Source: a virus. From it: a DNA stretch of 27,299 bases. Position numbers and translations under genes: made by a program. Of this stretch, positions 9,034 to 26,092 are shown in pieces (the first letter of the stretch is position 1; each line of letters begins with the position of its first letter). The notes beneath the pieces were generated by a model, which was not told the origin of the DNA, searched no databases, and saw only the letters and a list, made by a program, of their open reading frames with translations. The DNA is taken from IMG/VR virus record IMGVR_UViG_3300044733_004699, positions 1 through 27,299 of that record. One strand, 5' to 3'.

Positions 9034-9768
9034 TCAACCATAGCATGGAAGATTTACGTTTGAACTTTCAAAGAACGCGATTTGACGGCTACGACGGGAG
9101 TCTTCCATGCCAGAAGCCTTTCCTTCCCAGAACAGGCGCTCAGAGCGCTGCATCCAAGCGTTTTTGTCGAGCCATTGATCATCGCTCTTGCCCAAGTGCT
9201 CAAACAGCCAGCCAGCAGTGGCAATGCGCAGCTTATTAAGGCTTTCCGTTTCCGTTTCGCCCAGTTCCTTGGCCACCAAACCATGAACGCCACAATGCAC
9301 TTGCTCGTCACGGCTAATGTCTGCTGACACCGTGCGCATGCCGATGTTGCCATTGAAGCGGAAGAACGGCAGGGCAACGAAGAAGATAGAACGCTCAATA
9401 ATGGACACTTTATGAATTGGATGGGCGGGGTGCTCCATCCACACCTTCAAGATGTTTTGCACTTCTCGCTCTGCCTTCTCGTCAGTGCCATAGGCGGCAG
9501 CAACATAGTTCAGCGCTTCATCATGACGCTCTTCATCCTTCTGGTTGGAGCGCAACGCCTCAATGATGCCAGGAGTGGAAGGCAGTTCCTTCTGTAAGCC
9601 TTGCTCAAGCAAGTCCTTCACGGGCAGTTCAAGGTGGCGCAAAGCAATGGTCTTGAAAAGCGTGGATTCAGCGCCTTCCTTCACAGGCGAATTGTCCACT
9701 GGCGTGGCTTGCCAGGGGCGCTTCTTGGCGATCATTGCTGAATAGGGGCTCTTTTCAAGGACGGTCAT
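9034..9768 (-). CDS. nrdB: Ribonucleotide reductase class I, small (beta) subunit
   Basis: A 244-residue NrdB, short against the usual 320-390. NrdB supplies the oxidising metal cofactor for making dNTPs from NDPs. All six expected metal ligands can be placed: E47, E79 and H82 (EERH), E125 (IIERS), and E155 and H158 (DEQVH). The residue at H82+4, where the radical Tyr sits in E. coli NrdB (H118/Y122), is Leu86, and the nearest Tyr is at +6. This suggests a metal-centred oxidant as in class Ic/Id enzymes rather than a tyrosyl radical. The C-terminus NVNLPCYG would be the NrdA-docking tail. It lies 87 bp downstream of nrdA. Confidence 0.93.
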   Translation of the reverse strand: MTVLEKSPYSAMIAKKRPWQATPVDNSPVKEGAESTLFKTIALRHLELPVKDLLEQGLQKELPSTPGIIEALRSNQKDEERHDEALNYVAAAYGTDEKAEREVQNILKVWMEHPAHPIHKVSIIERSIFFVALPFFRFNGNIGMRTVSADISRDEQVHCGVHGLVAKELGETETESLNKLRIATAGWLFEHLGKSDDQWLDKNAWMQRSERLFWEGKASGMEDSRRSRQIAFFESSNVNLPCYG

Positions 9769-9855: not shown

Positions 9856-11301
9856 TCACTCTGCACATGCAGCGCAGAAACCAGCATCTATGCCACAAGA
9901 GACAGTCTCTCCTAAGGGCTCAGTATCGCTGAGTCCAAACATGGTCTTAAATTCGTCGTCTAAGGCAGCGTAAGCATCATCTTTTCGTTGCGTGTCCGGG
10001 AGAACTTGCAGCGAATAGTAGAGGCTTGTCTGAGGAGATTCTAGCCAATCTTTCAAGAAGGCCTCGTCGTAAATAACAATGTCGCTCCATGAGTTATACG
10101 AATAGCCATGGAAAAGACCAGTGTTTTGATACAGACGTACCAGCTCATCTGCGACCAGTTTGTAATTGTCCCAGCCCACTTCAGCAGCAATTTCCACTTC
10201 CCCATAGTCAAAGCTTTCCACGCCGAAAGTGCCACTATCCCGATCAACTAAACGAGCAATGGGAGGGGCGATTTCAGGGGCTGTCGTAAAGCCTTTGGAA
10301 TCTAAATAGCGGTAGGAGCAAGAGGCTGTAGGAGCAATGCAGAAGGCGCGTTCCATTCCAGCTTCACGAGCCACTTCAGCAGCACCACTAATACCTTGGA
10401 AGATGGCAAATACGGCATTACCCACTGGCTTGTCCATAATTTCATACCAGTCTCGCGGATCTTCTTGATTGAAGGCTTTCAGGGCTTTGCCGAAGTCAGC
10501 ATAAGAAATGCCATGGAGGGAAAGGAAATTAGCAAGCCCAAGCATGCCAAGCCCCACTTGTCTATCAATCACAGAAGGAAGATATTCGCCTGTGGCGCCC
10601 ACGCCCGTTTTGCCATGAAGCTCACAGAGCTGCTCCATGCCCTCCACAAAGGCCCCTGTCACGTCTTCAATGGAGCAGGCGCCCATATTGACATGCTGCA
10701 GCAGGCAGGTGCCACGATGGGGGAGATACACTTCCAGGCAAACATTGGCACGAATGCGCTCGCCTTTTTCGTTGTAGCGAATCTTATTAAGCCAGATGTC
10801 GCCAGTGCCAATGCCTTTAAGGAGAGTATCAATCAGCTCCTTAGAAGAACGTTCAAGGAAATTTTCGTCTACGTTTAGACAACGTTTCACCCATGGAAGT
10901 TCTTGCCTAGAAGCTTGCAGGAAATCAAGCGCATCAGGATGGTCATAATCAAGATGCAATACTACAGCCCCGTTTTTATAGACGCCGCCGCGACGAAGAA
11001 TTTCATTGAGAGTGGAATAAATCTTGCCAAAACTTACAGGACCACTTGCTACAAGCCCTTTGCCATTTTCATGCCCTTTGCCGCGCAAATTAGATAAATG
11101 AACAGCAACTCCTGCACCATTACGCAGACCATGGGAAACAAAGCGCCAAGATGCTTCAATGCCTTCCTCCCCTTCCATTGAATCTTCAACTACAAAAACT
11201 GTGCAAGATACGGGCAAGCGTCCATTGGTATCATCCATCCAATTTTGGACTCTTCCTGTGCGAGCAATCTTGTCTGCCTTGGCTCCTTCCTTCAGCTTCA
11301 T
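9856..11301 (-). CDS. nrdA: Ribonucleotide reductase class I, large (alpha) subunit, short form
   Basis: From the ATG at 11301 this is a 481-residue NrdA, far shorter than the usual 750 or so. It lacks the N-terminal ATP-cone and most of the N-terminal helical domain. The catalytic set is present: a first active-site Cys in LPVSCTVF (33), the N-x-C-x-E motif NVCLE (Cys188), a second redox Cys in GTCLLQHVNMG (199), the phosphate loop APTASCS, and the paired radical-transfer Tyr in SLYYS (428-429). The C-terminal CAAC pair would accept thioredoxin or glutaredoxin electrons. Without the cone, overall dATP feedback should be absent. A frame 12 codons longer exists but would run through a terminator hairpin. 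It pairs with the downstream nrdB. Confidence 0.93.
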   Translation of the reverse strand: MKLKEGAKADKIARTGRVQNWMDDTNGRLPVSCTVFVVEDSMEGEEGIEASWRFVSHGLRNGAGVAVHLSNLRGKGHENGKGLVASGPVSFGKIYSTLNEILRRGGVYKNGAVVLHLDYDHPDALDFLQASRQELPWVKRCLNVDENFLERSSKELIDTLLKGIGTGDIWLNKIRYNEKGERIRANVCLEVYLPHRGTCLLQHVNMGACSIEDVTGAFVEGMEQLCELHGKTGVGATGEYLPSVIDRQVGLGMLGLANFLSLHGISYADFGKALKAFNQEDPRDWYEIMDKPVGNAVFAIFQGISGAAEVAREAGMERAFCIAPTASCSYRYLDSKGFTTAPEIAPPIARLVDRDSGTFGVESFDYGEVEIAAEVGWDNYKLVADELVRLYQNTGLFHGYSYNSWSDIVIYDEAFLKDWLESPQTSLYYSLQVLPDTQRKDDAYAALDDEFKTMFGLSDTEPLGETVSCGIDAGFCAACAE

Positions 11302-11307
11302 GAGACG

Positions 11308-11329
11308 AAAAAGCCCGCTCATGCGGGCT
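11308..11329 (-). terminator. Intrinsic terminator just upstream of nrdA
   Basis: On the minus strand AGCCCGC/GCGGGCT form a perfect 7-bp stem with an ATGA loop and a five-U tail, ending 7 bases before the nrdA ATG. It fits termination of the small-gene transcript upstream. nrdA then needs readthrough or its own promoter, and none is obvious. Confidence 0.75.
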
Positions 11330-11404
11330 GGTGACAACAGGAAAAAGCCTAGCTCAAACTTCCATCGTGCCAGCTTTAATCACAACATCTTTGCACAATT
11401 GGCG

Positions 11405-12031: not shown

Positions 12032-12271
12032 CTACCAATCAGGATAGCAGCATGCCGGTGGCGTCTCATCTAAAGATAAGTGCCAATCCAGGAGGTCAAT
12101 TTGATGGCCGCTATGCGCTGCCACGCGTGGACGGTAGAACTGCTCCTTAGGGGGCTTGACCATGGCAGGCAAGTCCCGAATGGTGCGAGGCCATGCTCTT
12201 TCTGAAGAGACGAACACTCTCCAAAAGCTGACGACTGTGGCATAGCCCGTGCGACTGTTGTTATATCCCAT
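12032..12271 (-). CDS. Small basic protein of unknown function, first gene of the nrd operon
   Basis: A 79-residue, Arg/Pro-rich protein (KPPKEQFYRPRVAAHSGHQIDLLDWHL) starting MGYNNSRTGYATVV. No family is recognised. It is the first minus-strand gene after the 900-bp structured intergenic region, so its leader probably contains two of the RNA-like modules at 12467-12610. The ATG follows a pyrimidine-rich stretch (CTTTCCCTTCTCC) instead of a Shine-Dalgarno site, as at several other genes here. Confidence 0.55.
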   Translation of the reverse strand: MGYNNSRTGYATVVSFWRVFVSSERAWPRTIRDLPAMVKPPKEQFYRPRVAAHSGHQIDLLDWHLSLDETPPACCYPDW

Positions 12272-12466: not shown

Positions 12467-12514
12467 GAGCCGCTACGAGCAGGAGCCCCCAAGGCGATAG
12501 ATAACAAGCGGCTC
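12467..12514 (-). ncRNA. RNA-like module A (8-bp stem, inner GCC-UUGGG-GGC hairpin)
   Basis: Read on the minus strand: outer stem GAGCCGCT, 11 nt, inner hairpin GCC-TTGGG-GGC, 10 nt ending GCTCGT, then AGCGGCTC closing the outer stem (8-10/11-11-8 layout, 48 nt). Module B has the same lengths and inner sequence but a different outer stem that still pairs perfectly. That is the pattern expected of a conserved RNA fold. It lies about 200 bp upstream of the nrd operon's first gene, so it would be in the leader. Confidence 0.6.
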
Positions 12515-12562
12515 AGCTCCACCATCCTCCTCTCAACTCCCTTCTTTTAAGAAGCCTTTGCT

Positions 12563-12610
12563 AGGAGCCCTACGAGCTGAGCCCCCAAGGCGGTACATTC
12601 CTGGGCTCCT
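12563..12610 (-). ncRNA. RNA-like module B
   Basis: Read on the minus strand: AGGAGCCC, 11 nt, GCC-TTGGG-GGC, 10 nt ending GCTCGTA, then GGGCTCCT. All segment lengths equal those of module A, while six of the eight outer pairs differ in identity, so the stem is kept and its sequence is not. It stands 48 bp upstream of module A in the same orientation, as a tandem leader element. A self-paired CTTCTT/AAGAAG hairpin lies between them (12541-12554). Confidence 0.6.
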
Positions 12611-12675
12611 TCCTTACCACCTCCTTTCGCTTTCTTCTTTTCTTTTGATCGCCCATATTGTGCGTAGCTATCGCC

Positions 12676-12713
12676 AGTCTTAAAACAGTCTCAAATGAGA
12701 CAATAGTAAGACT
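12676..12713. repeat. Nested stem-loop
   Basis: AGTCTTA (12676-12682) pairs with TAAGACT (12707-12713). Inside, after a symmetric 5+5 internal loop, GTCTC pairs with GAGAC around AAAT. It directly abuts module D, so the two may stack as one structured RNA on the plus strand. Confidence 0.45.
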
Positions 12714-12765
12714 AAGGCCGCATGAATGACGCTCCTGGGGGAGCTACCCTCTCGCAAGCGGCCTT
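12714..12765 (+). ncRNA. RNA-like module D upstream of the 37-aa membrane peptide
   Basis: On the plus strand: AAGGCCGC, 9 nt, hairpin GCTCC-TGGG-GGAGC, 13 nt containing CTCTCGCAA, then GCGGCCTT. The plan matches modules A, B and C: an 8-bp outer stem, a G-rich loop on a short inner hairpin, and a pyrimidine/CG-containing 3' strand. The inner stem here is longer. It ends 9 bp before the ATG of the 37-aa peptide, suiting a cis-acting leader. Confidence 0.5.
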
Positions 12766-12774
12766 CATAAACTC

Positions 12775-12888
12775 ATGCTTCATCCCCTCGCTTCACCAAC
12801 TGATCCTTCCTGGAGCGTAATCATTGCTCTCCTAATCCTCCTTACTTTCGTCCTCCTTGCCATAGCTCTCATCCTGAAAGAACCATAA
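12775..12888 (+). CDS. 37-aa single-span membrane peptide
   Basis: A short frame codes for 37 residues: a 12-residue Pro/Ser-rich N-terminus, a hydrophobic run of about 20 residues from VIIALLILLTF through LLAIALI, and the tail LKEP. A clean membrane span from random DNA at this length is unlikely. Nothing longer is coded on either strand here. It sits 9 bp after module D. It might be a holin-like or host-membrane peptide; a resemblance to small photosystem subunits in size and tail is too weak to call. No Shine-Dalgarno site is seen. Confidence 0.5.
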   Translation: MLHPLASPTDPSWSVIIALLILLTFVLLAIALILKEP

Positions 12889-13150
12889 GACGACGAACAA
12901 TCTTGGTGACCTCACTCCCCATCGTTCAGCTCTAGATCGTTCGGTCAGTGCGCACTGGGAAGTGGCATATGGGGAAAAAATGGATTGAAAATTACGTCGC
13001 TCCTAATTTGGGTATCCCCGACCCCCTGCGATAGAACGCCCGTACTACTGCTCCCTGTAACATTTTGCAACTGATAAGCAATGCTGATAAAAATGTCTTA
13101 TTGAGAACGCCTCTCAATAGGCTAATTGTCTCCCAACCATAGAAAGAAAG
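12889..13150. other. Intergenic stretch with palindromes only
   Basis: No gene is supported. It holds a perfect 12-bp palindrome CAGTGCGCACTG (12946-12957), a direct repeat of ATCGTTC 15 bp apart (12921, 12936), and TATTGAGA/TCTCAATA (13099-13119). The last shares TATTGAGAACG with the Fur-like box at 15211-15220. A 21-codon frame at 12971 is too short to support. Confidence 0.5.
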
Positions 13151-24906: not shown

Positions 24907-25218
24907 TCAGAACAAATCCTTGGGAGGTGTGTACACCAAGCTATCCTTGAAGCCCAGGATTTCATAATCACCCAGGTCGTCTTTTAGCTTCTTGGCAGCC
25001 TTAAGCTCTTCCTCCATCGCCCTGATTTCGCTTCCATAGTCCTTGTCATAACGACGCTGAATGCGAATGGTGCCATAAGGGCTTTCTTCTTTTTCAAGGC
25101 CATCTTCCTGCATTGCTGCCAGAAGGTCTGCTTTGCATTGTGCTTCCTTTTCAGCCAATGCTTTTTGATTTGCCTTGATGCTTTCTAGTTCCTTGAGGAA
25201 CTGTTCAATGTCAGTCAT
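24907..25218 (-). CDS. Coiled-coil protein of unknown function
   Basis: A 103-residue protein, MTDIEQFLKELESIKANQKA, with a long charged coiled coil, a short beta segment (SPYGTIRIQRRYDKD), and a second helix. This plan, coiled coil then YGTIRIQRR-type hairpin, resembles host-nuclease inhibitor or Gam-like small phage proteins only loosely. It overlaps the upstream gene by 4 bp. Confidence 0.7.
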   Translation of the reverse strand: MTDIEQFLKELESIKANQKALAEKEAQCKADLLAAMQEDGLEKEESPYGTIRIQRRYDKDYGSEIRAMEEELKAAKKLKDDLGDYEILGFKDSLVYTPPKDLF

Positions 25219-25460
25219 GATGCAAGGCCGCTAGCAAGAGCAGGGGTTTCAAAGTTGCGATCAATTAAAGATGCGATTTCTTCATAACTTCCTCGCCAGT
25301 GGCGTTCACCTGCAGTATCACGAGCACCATAGAGAGTGCGAGATTTAGGAGAGGGGCCACGATTTGGTTGAGAGAAACCATGGTGAACGAAAGGTTCAAT
25401 AGTAACTCCCGCATGCTCCATAGTCGGAAGACGATCAGGAGGAAAGGGCGGTTTGATCAT
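25215..25460 (-). CDS. Small basic protein of unknown function, first in its operon
   Basis: An 81-residue protein: MIKPPFPPDRLPTMEHAGVT, HHGFSQPNRGPSPKSRTLYG, then WRGSYEEIASLIDRNFE. Proline- and Arg-rich first half, helical end. No family is recognised. It overlaps the coiled-coil gene (ATGA). A start at the internal MEHAG is possible. The region upstream carries module C and other hairpins. Confidence 0.6.
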   Translation of the reverse strand: MIKPPFPPDRLPTMEHAGVTIEPFVHHGFSQPNRGPSPKSRTLYGARDTAGERHWRGSYEEIASLIDRNFETPALASGLAS

Positions 25461-25503: not shown

Positions 25504-25556
25504 GAAGAGCGCCGTGAAAAAGCTCGCCTGGGGGCTCGCTGGTGCGCGTAGGCGCT
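25504..25556 (+). ncRNA. RNA-like module C
   Basis: On the plus strand: AGAGCGCC, 12 nt, hairpin GCC-TGGG-GGC, 15 nt ending GCGCGTA, then GGCGCTCT closing a perfect 8-bp outer stem. Inner hairpin and the CGTA end match modules A and B at 12.5 kb, but the outer stem is different and still pairs. It is followed at once by the hairpin AGCGAAAG/CTTTCGCT (25557-25582). It lies in a 285-bp divergent gap, upstream of the plus-strand gene at 25746. Confidence 0.6.
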
Positions 25557-25745
25557 CTAGCGAAAGGGTTGCAGGGCTTTCGCTTTATCACAAGCTCTCT
25601 CTGCAGTAAGTGCGCGTAAGTGAGCCCTTACGAGAACCAGAGTAAAGAGATTTTTCCGAAAATCAATAAGCAGTGTGCCAGTTTCTTATTGGCACATAAA
25701 ATTTGACGATGGGGCTAGCATTGGGAAGTCCTTTCCTCCAAATCA
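25557..25745. other. Hairpin-rich remainder of the divergent gap
   Basis: No gene is supported. It holds AGCGAAAG/CTTTCGCT (25557-25582, 8 bp), CGTAAG/CTTACG (25613-25630) and TGTGCCA/TGGCACA (25672-25694, 7 bp). The last shares its TGTGCC/GGCACA arms with 15001-15024. The stretch just before 25746 is pyrimidine-rich (CCTTTCCTCC), as at other starts here. Confidence 0.5.
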
Positions 25746-25928
25746 ATGGACTACGGCATAGCCCCTGAAATTCACACGGATGAATGGCTTAGCGCCAATG
25801 GTCATTCCAAGGAATGGCTGGAAAGGTGGTGCGCCAAGCCGCAGGTGGACAAGGAAGCCATCACCCATTGGCTCATCACCTACAAGCACAGCGATCCTCG
25901 CCTTGTCCCCCGCACGCGTCTCAAGTGA
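25746..25928 (+). CDS. Small protein of unknown function
   Basis: A 60-residue protein: MDYGIAPEIHTDEWLSANGH, SKEWLERWCAKPQVDKEAIT, HWLITYKHSDPRLVPRTRLK. Trp-rich and helical, ending basic. No family is recognised. Its TGA overlaps the GTG start of the next gene, so the two are coupled. It is the first plus-strand gene after module C. Confidence 0.65.
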   Translation: MDYGIAPEIHTDEWLSANGHSKEWLERWCAKPQVDKEAITHWLITYKHSDPRLVPRTRLK

Positions 25929-26092
25929 ACCCTTCCGAGCCCGATCAAGGCAAGATCATTCGTCTGCCTCGCAACGGCCCAAAGCCTGGTCAGTCCATGC
26001 AGGATTGGCTCTATGGCAAGGACAGAAGCGAGCGCCGAGAGATGGAGCGTCTTCGCTGGCAGACCAACAAGGCAAACAAAAAGGCCCCGTAA
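25925..26092 (+). CDS. 55-aa basic protein of unknown function
   Basis: From GTG overlapping the previous stop (GTGA) the frame codes NPSEPDQGKIIRLPRNGPKP, GQSMQDWLYGKDRSERREME and a Lys/Arg-rich end. The chosen start removes an out-of-place N-terminal extension present in the longer open frame to 25814. It resembles small nucleic-acid-binding phage proteins only in charge. A weak hairpin (GGCCCC/GGAGCC) overlaps its stop. Confidence 0.6.
   Translation: MNPSEPDQGKIIRLPRNGPKPGQSMQDWLYGKDRSERREMERLRWQTNKANKKAP

Follow-up and report, generated by a model that had tools for sequence, protein, structure and literature searches.

A predicted family of strand-specific, covarying structured elements with a fixed layout in uncultured cyanophages

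Introduction

Phage HK022 has two put RNAs of ~70 nt, encoded just past PL and PR, that act on RNA polymerase and need no dedicated phage protein; each of two early transcripts of opposite direction carries one such element, with two stem-loops near the promoter (PMC9378689). Glutamine riboswitches (glnA and Glutamine-II, formerly Downstream-peptide) are small and cyanobacterial or marine, with some glnA RNAs in tandem and the Downstream-peptide RNA preceding short ORFs. Structured RNAs reported from cyanophages include manA, wcaG, and PhotoRC-II. Hairpins on opposite strands also occur near the iteron origin of RSF1010 (ssiA and ssiB), where a RepA-like helicase is present.

Here, we analyze a 27,299-base IMG/VR virus record (the window, meaning the whole stretch of DNA), which is a distant relative of Synechococcus phage S-CBS4 (70% DNA identity over the reductase region). 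A preliminary description had distinguished four copies (A to D) of an RNA-like module, some near the ribonucleotide reductase (nrd) genes. That observation proved right and understated, and the overall interpretation attached to it was partly supported. The placement of the modules ahead of unrelated gene blocks, in outward-facing tandem pairs, resembles that of the put RNAs; however, they come as two ~50-nt modules mostly 93 to 99 nt apart, not as one ~70-nt unit, and in another host. Like glutamine riboswitches, they are small, cyanobacterial or marine, and tandem, with a short ORF behind some D copies, but their core differs, and the Glutamine-II model matches elsewhere in a module-bearing contig (L005:6436-6489) and at no module. 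The ssi hairpins would be comparable in arrangement (hairpins on opposite strands near a candidate origin), but here C modules are also found 10.6 to 16.5 kb away. The Rfam families manA, wcaG, and PhotoRC-II matched nothing in the sources scanned. In the accessible text of the literature searched (PMC9378689, PMC3480399, and PMC2864571 included), where subscription journals were thinly covered, we found no account of the modules.

Results

The modules follow one plan (Table 1). An outer stem (P1), usually of 7 to 13 bp (L016 has 6, and L013 has a single mismatch), leads into ~11 nt and then a small hairpin whose stem is G-C and whose loop resembles TTGGG; after ~9 to 17 nt containing C[GT]CG comes the closing strand P1'. 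The core, CG ahead of the hairpin and C[GT]CG after it, forms an asymmetric internal loop. Among 75 modules hand-picked from several searches for composition and core counts, 74 contained C[GT]CG, and the 34 nt ahead were rich in A and G but held little C (A 0.40, G 0.30, T 0.21, C 0.08). The outer stem is arbitrary in sequence and almost perfectly paired. In the window, copies A, B, and D and the membrane peptide behind D were found exactly where they had first been placed. Copy C is also real; its 8-bp stem, however, joins 25506-25513 with 25551-25558, 2 nt away from the span originally given (25504-25556). Copies A and B do share segment lengths of 8, 11, 11, 10, and 8 nt, but the conserved GCTCGT falls one nucleotide later in A, so calling their plans identical goes slightly too far. 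Irregular copies were observed as well: the loop is TTCG in a single D-type copy (L005), module 2 of L004 is shrunk to P1 around a tiny loop, and in L037 (about 265-400) one module is nested in another, between the inner hairpin and the 3' strand, as if inserted.

Table 1. Coordinates of the modules and neighboring features in the window
Feature	Position	Strand	Description
Module 1 (copy B)	12563..12610	-	P1 AGGAGCCC/GGGCTCCT; inner hairpin GCC-TTGGG-GGC; 3' strand GCTCGTA
Module 2 (copy A)	12467..12514	-	P1 GAGCCGCT/AGCGGCTC; inner hairpin GCC-TTGGG-GGC; 3' strand TGCTCGT
Module D	12714..12765	+	P1 AAGGCCGC/GCGGCCTT; inner hairpin GCTCC-TGGG-GGAGC
Module C	25506..25558	+	P1 AGAGCGCC/GGCGCTCT; inner hairpin GCC-TGGG-GGC with AGC/GCT extension; 3' strand GCGCGTA
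37-aa membrane peptide ORF	12775..12888	+	ATG 9 bp past D
Block F	12905..12957	+	Conserved behind D; 4-bp stem GACC/GGTC in the window
Further conserved noncoding block behind F	12987..13055	+	GAAAATTACGTCGCT ... TACTGCTCCC
K1-cluster ORF	25814..26092	+	Downstream of C, same strand
First small gene of nrd block (family F0)	12032..12271	-	Behind modules 1 and 2
Ribonucleotide reductase large subunit	9856..11337	-	phrog_367, PF02867
Ribonucleotide reductase class Ia beta subunit	9034..9768	-	phrog_6799
81-aa gene (family F61)	25215..25460	-	Beside C; independent search handle

A descriptor built from the four copies returned exactly those four in the window, compared to 0.15 per sequence (maximum of 1) in 60 first-order Markov simulations, although this test was post hoc. 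A fairer one is the permutation test of a stem-blind pattern, the core without the outer stem, which was run over the IMG/VR collection. The pattern hit 49 stretches, including 7 from an earlier pattern search; on reading, 35 were judged family members, 8 (L009, L021, L026, L031, L033, L039, L042, and L045) held a different short arrangement, and 6 (L014, L015, L022, L034, L048, and L049) were chance-like. Near-identical loci were removed before stem, P1-pair, and anatomy counts, so that 53 matches with full flanks were reduced to 28 dissimilar ones (<80% flank identity), with the distinct ones among the 14 nonfamily stretches retained. Outer stems of at least 7 Watson-Crick pairs were present in 18 of the 28; when the right flanks were permuted 300 times, the number averaged 1.74 and never exceeded 6. 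The stem sequences diverged strongly between matches. Covariation in P1 thus bears out the selected fold that had been proposed from the window copies.

Two further handles agreed with this result and extended the set of homologues with compensating stem changes. The protein handle, F61, retrieved 12 loci; modules are present at all but L063, hence at 11 (E up to 0.004), and several loci are near copies of one another or of the window (L052-L054). The second handle was element E (AGCGCCGCAGGG...CCCAGGCGCG), a conserved block downstream of the C modules: its pattern located 23 contigs, 22 with same-strand upstream modules (E up to 0.1) and one, L096, without. Ten of these contigs were already known, and 12 of the 13 new ones held modules, including L091, which a C-type core pattern had also retrieved.

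A covariance model (R1; 28 copies, narrow) gave 83 matches at E up to 1 over 51 loci (443,822 bases), a count that includes the training copies and whose weakest few are probably chance. In the R1-derived alignment of 56 distinct rows, standard pairs reached 79.8% (69.2% shuffled) and the covariation score was 0.339 (0.184 shuffled; 0 of 500 shuffles reached the observed value; slid partners, ≤0.183); these statistics are supporting but not independent, since the alignment was fitted to the structure. The evidence for the fold is covariation and not folding energy, which was weak (z between −0.9 and −2.4 in six modules; −1.4 over the entire leader).

The P1 pairs also indicate which strand folds. 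Across 51 distinct helices, scored with equal weight for G-U and A-C, we counted 475 Watson-Crick, 11 G-U, 1 A-C, and 9 other pairs (G-U to A-C of 4:0 at nrd, 1:1 at D, and 6:0 at C). Because G-U pairs outnumber A-C pairs 11 to 1, the motif strand is the one that folds as a single strand. The G-U excess alone does not separate RNA from single-stranded DNA; G-U makes up ~2% of P1 pairs, which is little for RNA and would also suit a hairpin in DNA.

Searches of whole records gave matches in 28 of 30 (E up to 0.001) and 16 of 17 (E up to 0.01), the records without a match being S-CBS4 and those of L014 and L063. The resulting 44 of 47 is not a frequency estimate, because records were picked for holding a previously found locus. 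The preliminary description had spoken of a family of this phage; the family stands, but that scope was too narrow. Judged from sequence comparison, the modules constitute a family of strand-specific, covarying structured elements in uncultured relatives of the window virus. In blastn searches, the C and nrd loci gave only scattered matches (E of 0.1 or worse) among 50,697 phage records, and the D side had no matches among phage isolate records. The 8-mer TGCKCGTA occurred 7 times in the window (1.3 expected, maximum of 5), with 4 of the 7 at the two loci, and was not enriched in record G018 (5 versus 3.4); it is thus not a genome-wide signal. In S-CBS4, R1 found no match better than E 1.5. 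A relaxed descriptor located at the homologous place a hairpin-in-stem, CTTCTAG/CTAGAAG around CGCCCC-TTGG-GGGGCG, a possible, unproven relative of the module. Four stretches from a scan of bacterial genome contigs, considered as bacterial homologues, had the core only, without P1, and were treated as chance.

The layout of the loci is conserved. At the nrd locus, tandem modules lie on the strand of the reductase block with starts mostly 93 to 99 nt apart (86 to 134 over nrd and C loci), and D lies on the opposite strand, about 100 to 190 bp from module 1. At the C locus, one or two modules stand beside a primase/helicase gene (F60, AAA_25 domain). In the records with matches at both, the C and nrd sets are 10.6 to 16.5 kb apart (counted across record ends for G014 and G018), and all 11 such records have them on opposite strands. 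Among the 13 records of at least 48 kb, matches fell at both loci in 7 and at one only in 5, and S-CBS4 had none. The nrd genes of L016 and L036 are directed away from the module detected there, which we interpret as a D copy. The genes downstream are not the same set at every locus. Of the 24 C loci compared, 19 have K1 on the plus strand downstream of C; in 10 it comes immediately after E or the site where E would be, and in 9 it is more distant. The G018 C locus has three overlapping small ORFs downstream. Including the window, 3 of 11 D copies are followed by such a short ORF, those of L029 and L043 being 34 aa long and similar to the 37-aa peptide, and a similar ORF start lies behind D in L075.

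Element E followed the C modules in 22 of 23 contigs, and all 22 module-bearing E sites read were C loci. In its variable inner stem, two pairs show A-U in place of G-C, each in 2 of the 25 rows. Block F was found at 22 loci, with 20 distinct rows having all four pairs, whereas 99 other matches to the loose F pattern were incompletely paired; in relatives the stem reads GTCC/GGAC, GCGC/GCGC, or GCCC/GGGC between constant TCACT and GTTC. Blocks E and F suggest longer structured RNAs. However, an exact-stem search found F absent from every C-locus piece; with the module-bearing E sites all at C loci, no single longer RNA is shared by the nrd locus and the C locus. A protein-coding repeat was considered and rejected, because three-frame translation around E revealed no frame open and alignable in all 23 C loci translated (25 queried; L069 and the window lacked an E match). 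Some loci do have open frames across modules, even E; L035 and L023 share one that is closed in the others.

No named RNA of this kind had been recognized at the outset, and comparison with Rfam 15 (4227 families) agreed: no family matched over any module in 18 different sources. At E up to 1, the window yielded tRNA-Leu only, and L002, L004, and L005 yielded abiF, Glutamine-II, tRNA, and sub-threshold matches, none at a module. Six C loci had no module match, and ten loci scanned at gathering score gave abiF (3) and Glutamine-II (1), again none at a module.

Discussion

The family consists of well-supported structured elements in a fixed genomic layout, belongs to an uncultured cyanophage group, and has no match in Rfam 15 in the 18 sources scanned. 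Our tentative preference, at a probability of roughly 0.35, is that the modules are cis-acting leader RNAs that modify the host RNA polymerase, similar in action to HK022 put. They would be transcribed as leaders of the downstream blocks and work in cis while the transcript is being made; the module RNA would most likely bind the RNA polymerase of the host or one of its elongation factors and so allow read-through of long phage operons. The tandem pairs are placed ahead of two outward-facing blocks, nrd and small-gene, with the single D pointing away from nrd. Placement upstream of genes, as originally noted, fits this reading: same-strand genes follow the nrd modules, and K1 follows C at most loci. 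Also in its favor are the covarying P1, folding of the motif strand, the A/G-rich sequence ahead of the modules, the opposite strands of the nrd and C sets, and the lack of a common reading frame. Because downstream gene sets differ, a general leader function may be preferable to a response to one metabolite, and the label cis-regulatory RNA given in the preliminary description is plausible.

Several observations count against a leader role. Consensus scans for sigma-70-like sites (2 and 1 versus 0.9 and 0.7 expected) and terminator-like sites (3 and 2 versus 1.1 and 1.4 expected) were little above chance. The first nrd-side start codon in the window, that of F0, is 195 nt past module A, and the interval includes promoter-like sequence; C sits between two opposite-strand genes. 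In addition, 5 of the 13 long records have one locus only and S-CBS4 none, G-U pairs are scarce in P1, and the best R1 match in HK022 (1-40700) was 12.7 bits (E 0.62) in the portal gene. R1 is narrow and a distant relation is possible; because HK022 has no convincing match, we do not claim membership of the put family. If the modules do act as RNA on RNA polymerase, protein-free antitermination would extend from lambdoid phages to cyanobacteria. A bolder version is rather improbable: tandem modules at both early transcripts would load onto cyanobacterial RNA polymerase as a protein-free, RNA-only elongation switch, and the D side would tie the system to a DnaA-box origin, so that one family coordinates early transcription and the start of replication.

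The strongest rival to the leader reading is replication, a serious possibility that we nevertheless consider on balance doubtful. The modules would be hairpins that load a primosome or primase on the lagging-strand template, like RSF1010 ssiA/ssiB, or parts of a primer RNA, with the origin between D and modules 1 and 2 or just behind D. As expected of lagging-template signals, D and C point one way and modules 1 and 2 the other; the neighbor F60 is a primase/helicase, and the rarity of G-U in P1 also fits. The cyanobacterial DnaA box has the consensus TTTTCCACA (PMC3480399). Searching for TT[TA]TCCACA, we found three matches in tandem behind F in L018 and L075 (5008-5038 and 1605-1636, respectively; spacing of 11 to 12 bp), one behind F in L013 (6795), and two behind D in L016 (1830-1850) and L036 (6336-6356); these clusters may mark a phage origin. 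Five whole records held 4 matches, three forming the tandem cluster in G015 and one elsewhere in G011. With five records treated as circles, mean GC skew was positive over the nrd-to-C arc (0.008 to 0.036) and negative over the rest (−0.020 to −0.040) in all five, although both arcs are mostly minus-coding. As an origin test, skew and DnaA boxes are suggestive only: boxes accompanied D or F at just 5 of the 25 nrd loci scanned, the window not being among them, matches also fell elsewhere (two in L017, one each in L016 and S-CBS4), C is more than 10 kb from the supposed origin, and purine-rich strand bias and tandem layout fit leaders equally well. An origin element would offer a handle on the replication of cyanobacterial siphoviruses.

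It is unlikely that modules, linkers, and E (or D and F) make up stand-alone, protein-binding noncoding RNAs of 250 to 450 nt with a trans-acting or structural role. The regular occurrence of E behind C modules, of F and a further block behind D, and the lack of a common reading frame would be expected of such RNAs, but same-strand genes follow the modules, and the two loci share no single longer RNA.

Aptamers usually have a small constant core in variable stems, tandem copies, and a leader position. The modules have such a core and such copies ahead of genes, and a Glutamine-II riboswitch lies elsewhere in L005. A riboswitch-like aptamer, whose internal loop would bind a small molecule while the leader controls nrd and early genes and tandem copies sharpen the response, is nonetheless quite improbable: no expression platform was seen beside the modules, the sets of genes behind them vary from locus to locus, and no Rfam riboswitch matched at a module in the 18 sources. 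Functionless palindromic repeat DNA, its perfection maintained by template-switch correction, is very improbable, for although P1 is almost perfectly paired across lineages and L037 holds a nested module, the core with its C[GT]CG is constant (74 of 75), places, orientation, and spacing are fixed, and E and F co-occur over divergent genomes.

Other signals were observed around the modules. The eight stretches with a different short arrangement (L009 to L045) read GCGCGCGT or ACGCGT .. CGCCTTGGGGGC .. GCGCGTAAC. Four of the 9 records searched with up to 3 mismatches have a single-copy dif-like palindrome, TTCTCAATAA-N7-TTATCGAGAA, similar to one in S-CBS4, in the interval from the C modules to E (G011:C1:54098-54124, G018:C1:9758-9784, G003:C1:17436-17462, and G014:C1:7049-7075; control pattern, 0). 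Another palindrome, GTGCCA..TTGGCAC, downstream of C (window 25675-25695), has similar sequences behind E in several relatives and is possibly a repressor site. An abiF RNA scored above the gathering threshold in four phage contigs, about 4 to 5 kb downstream of the nrd modules (L005:5123-5159, L002:6431-6467, L011:4063-4099, and L029:4839-4875), directly ahead of a tRNA in L002. Finally, a GAGGC-TCGC-GCCTC hairpin followed by GTTGA or GTGA is present in four copies in the window (17077, 17466, 18923, and 19322), 63 to 81% identical over 43 nt.
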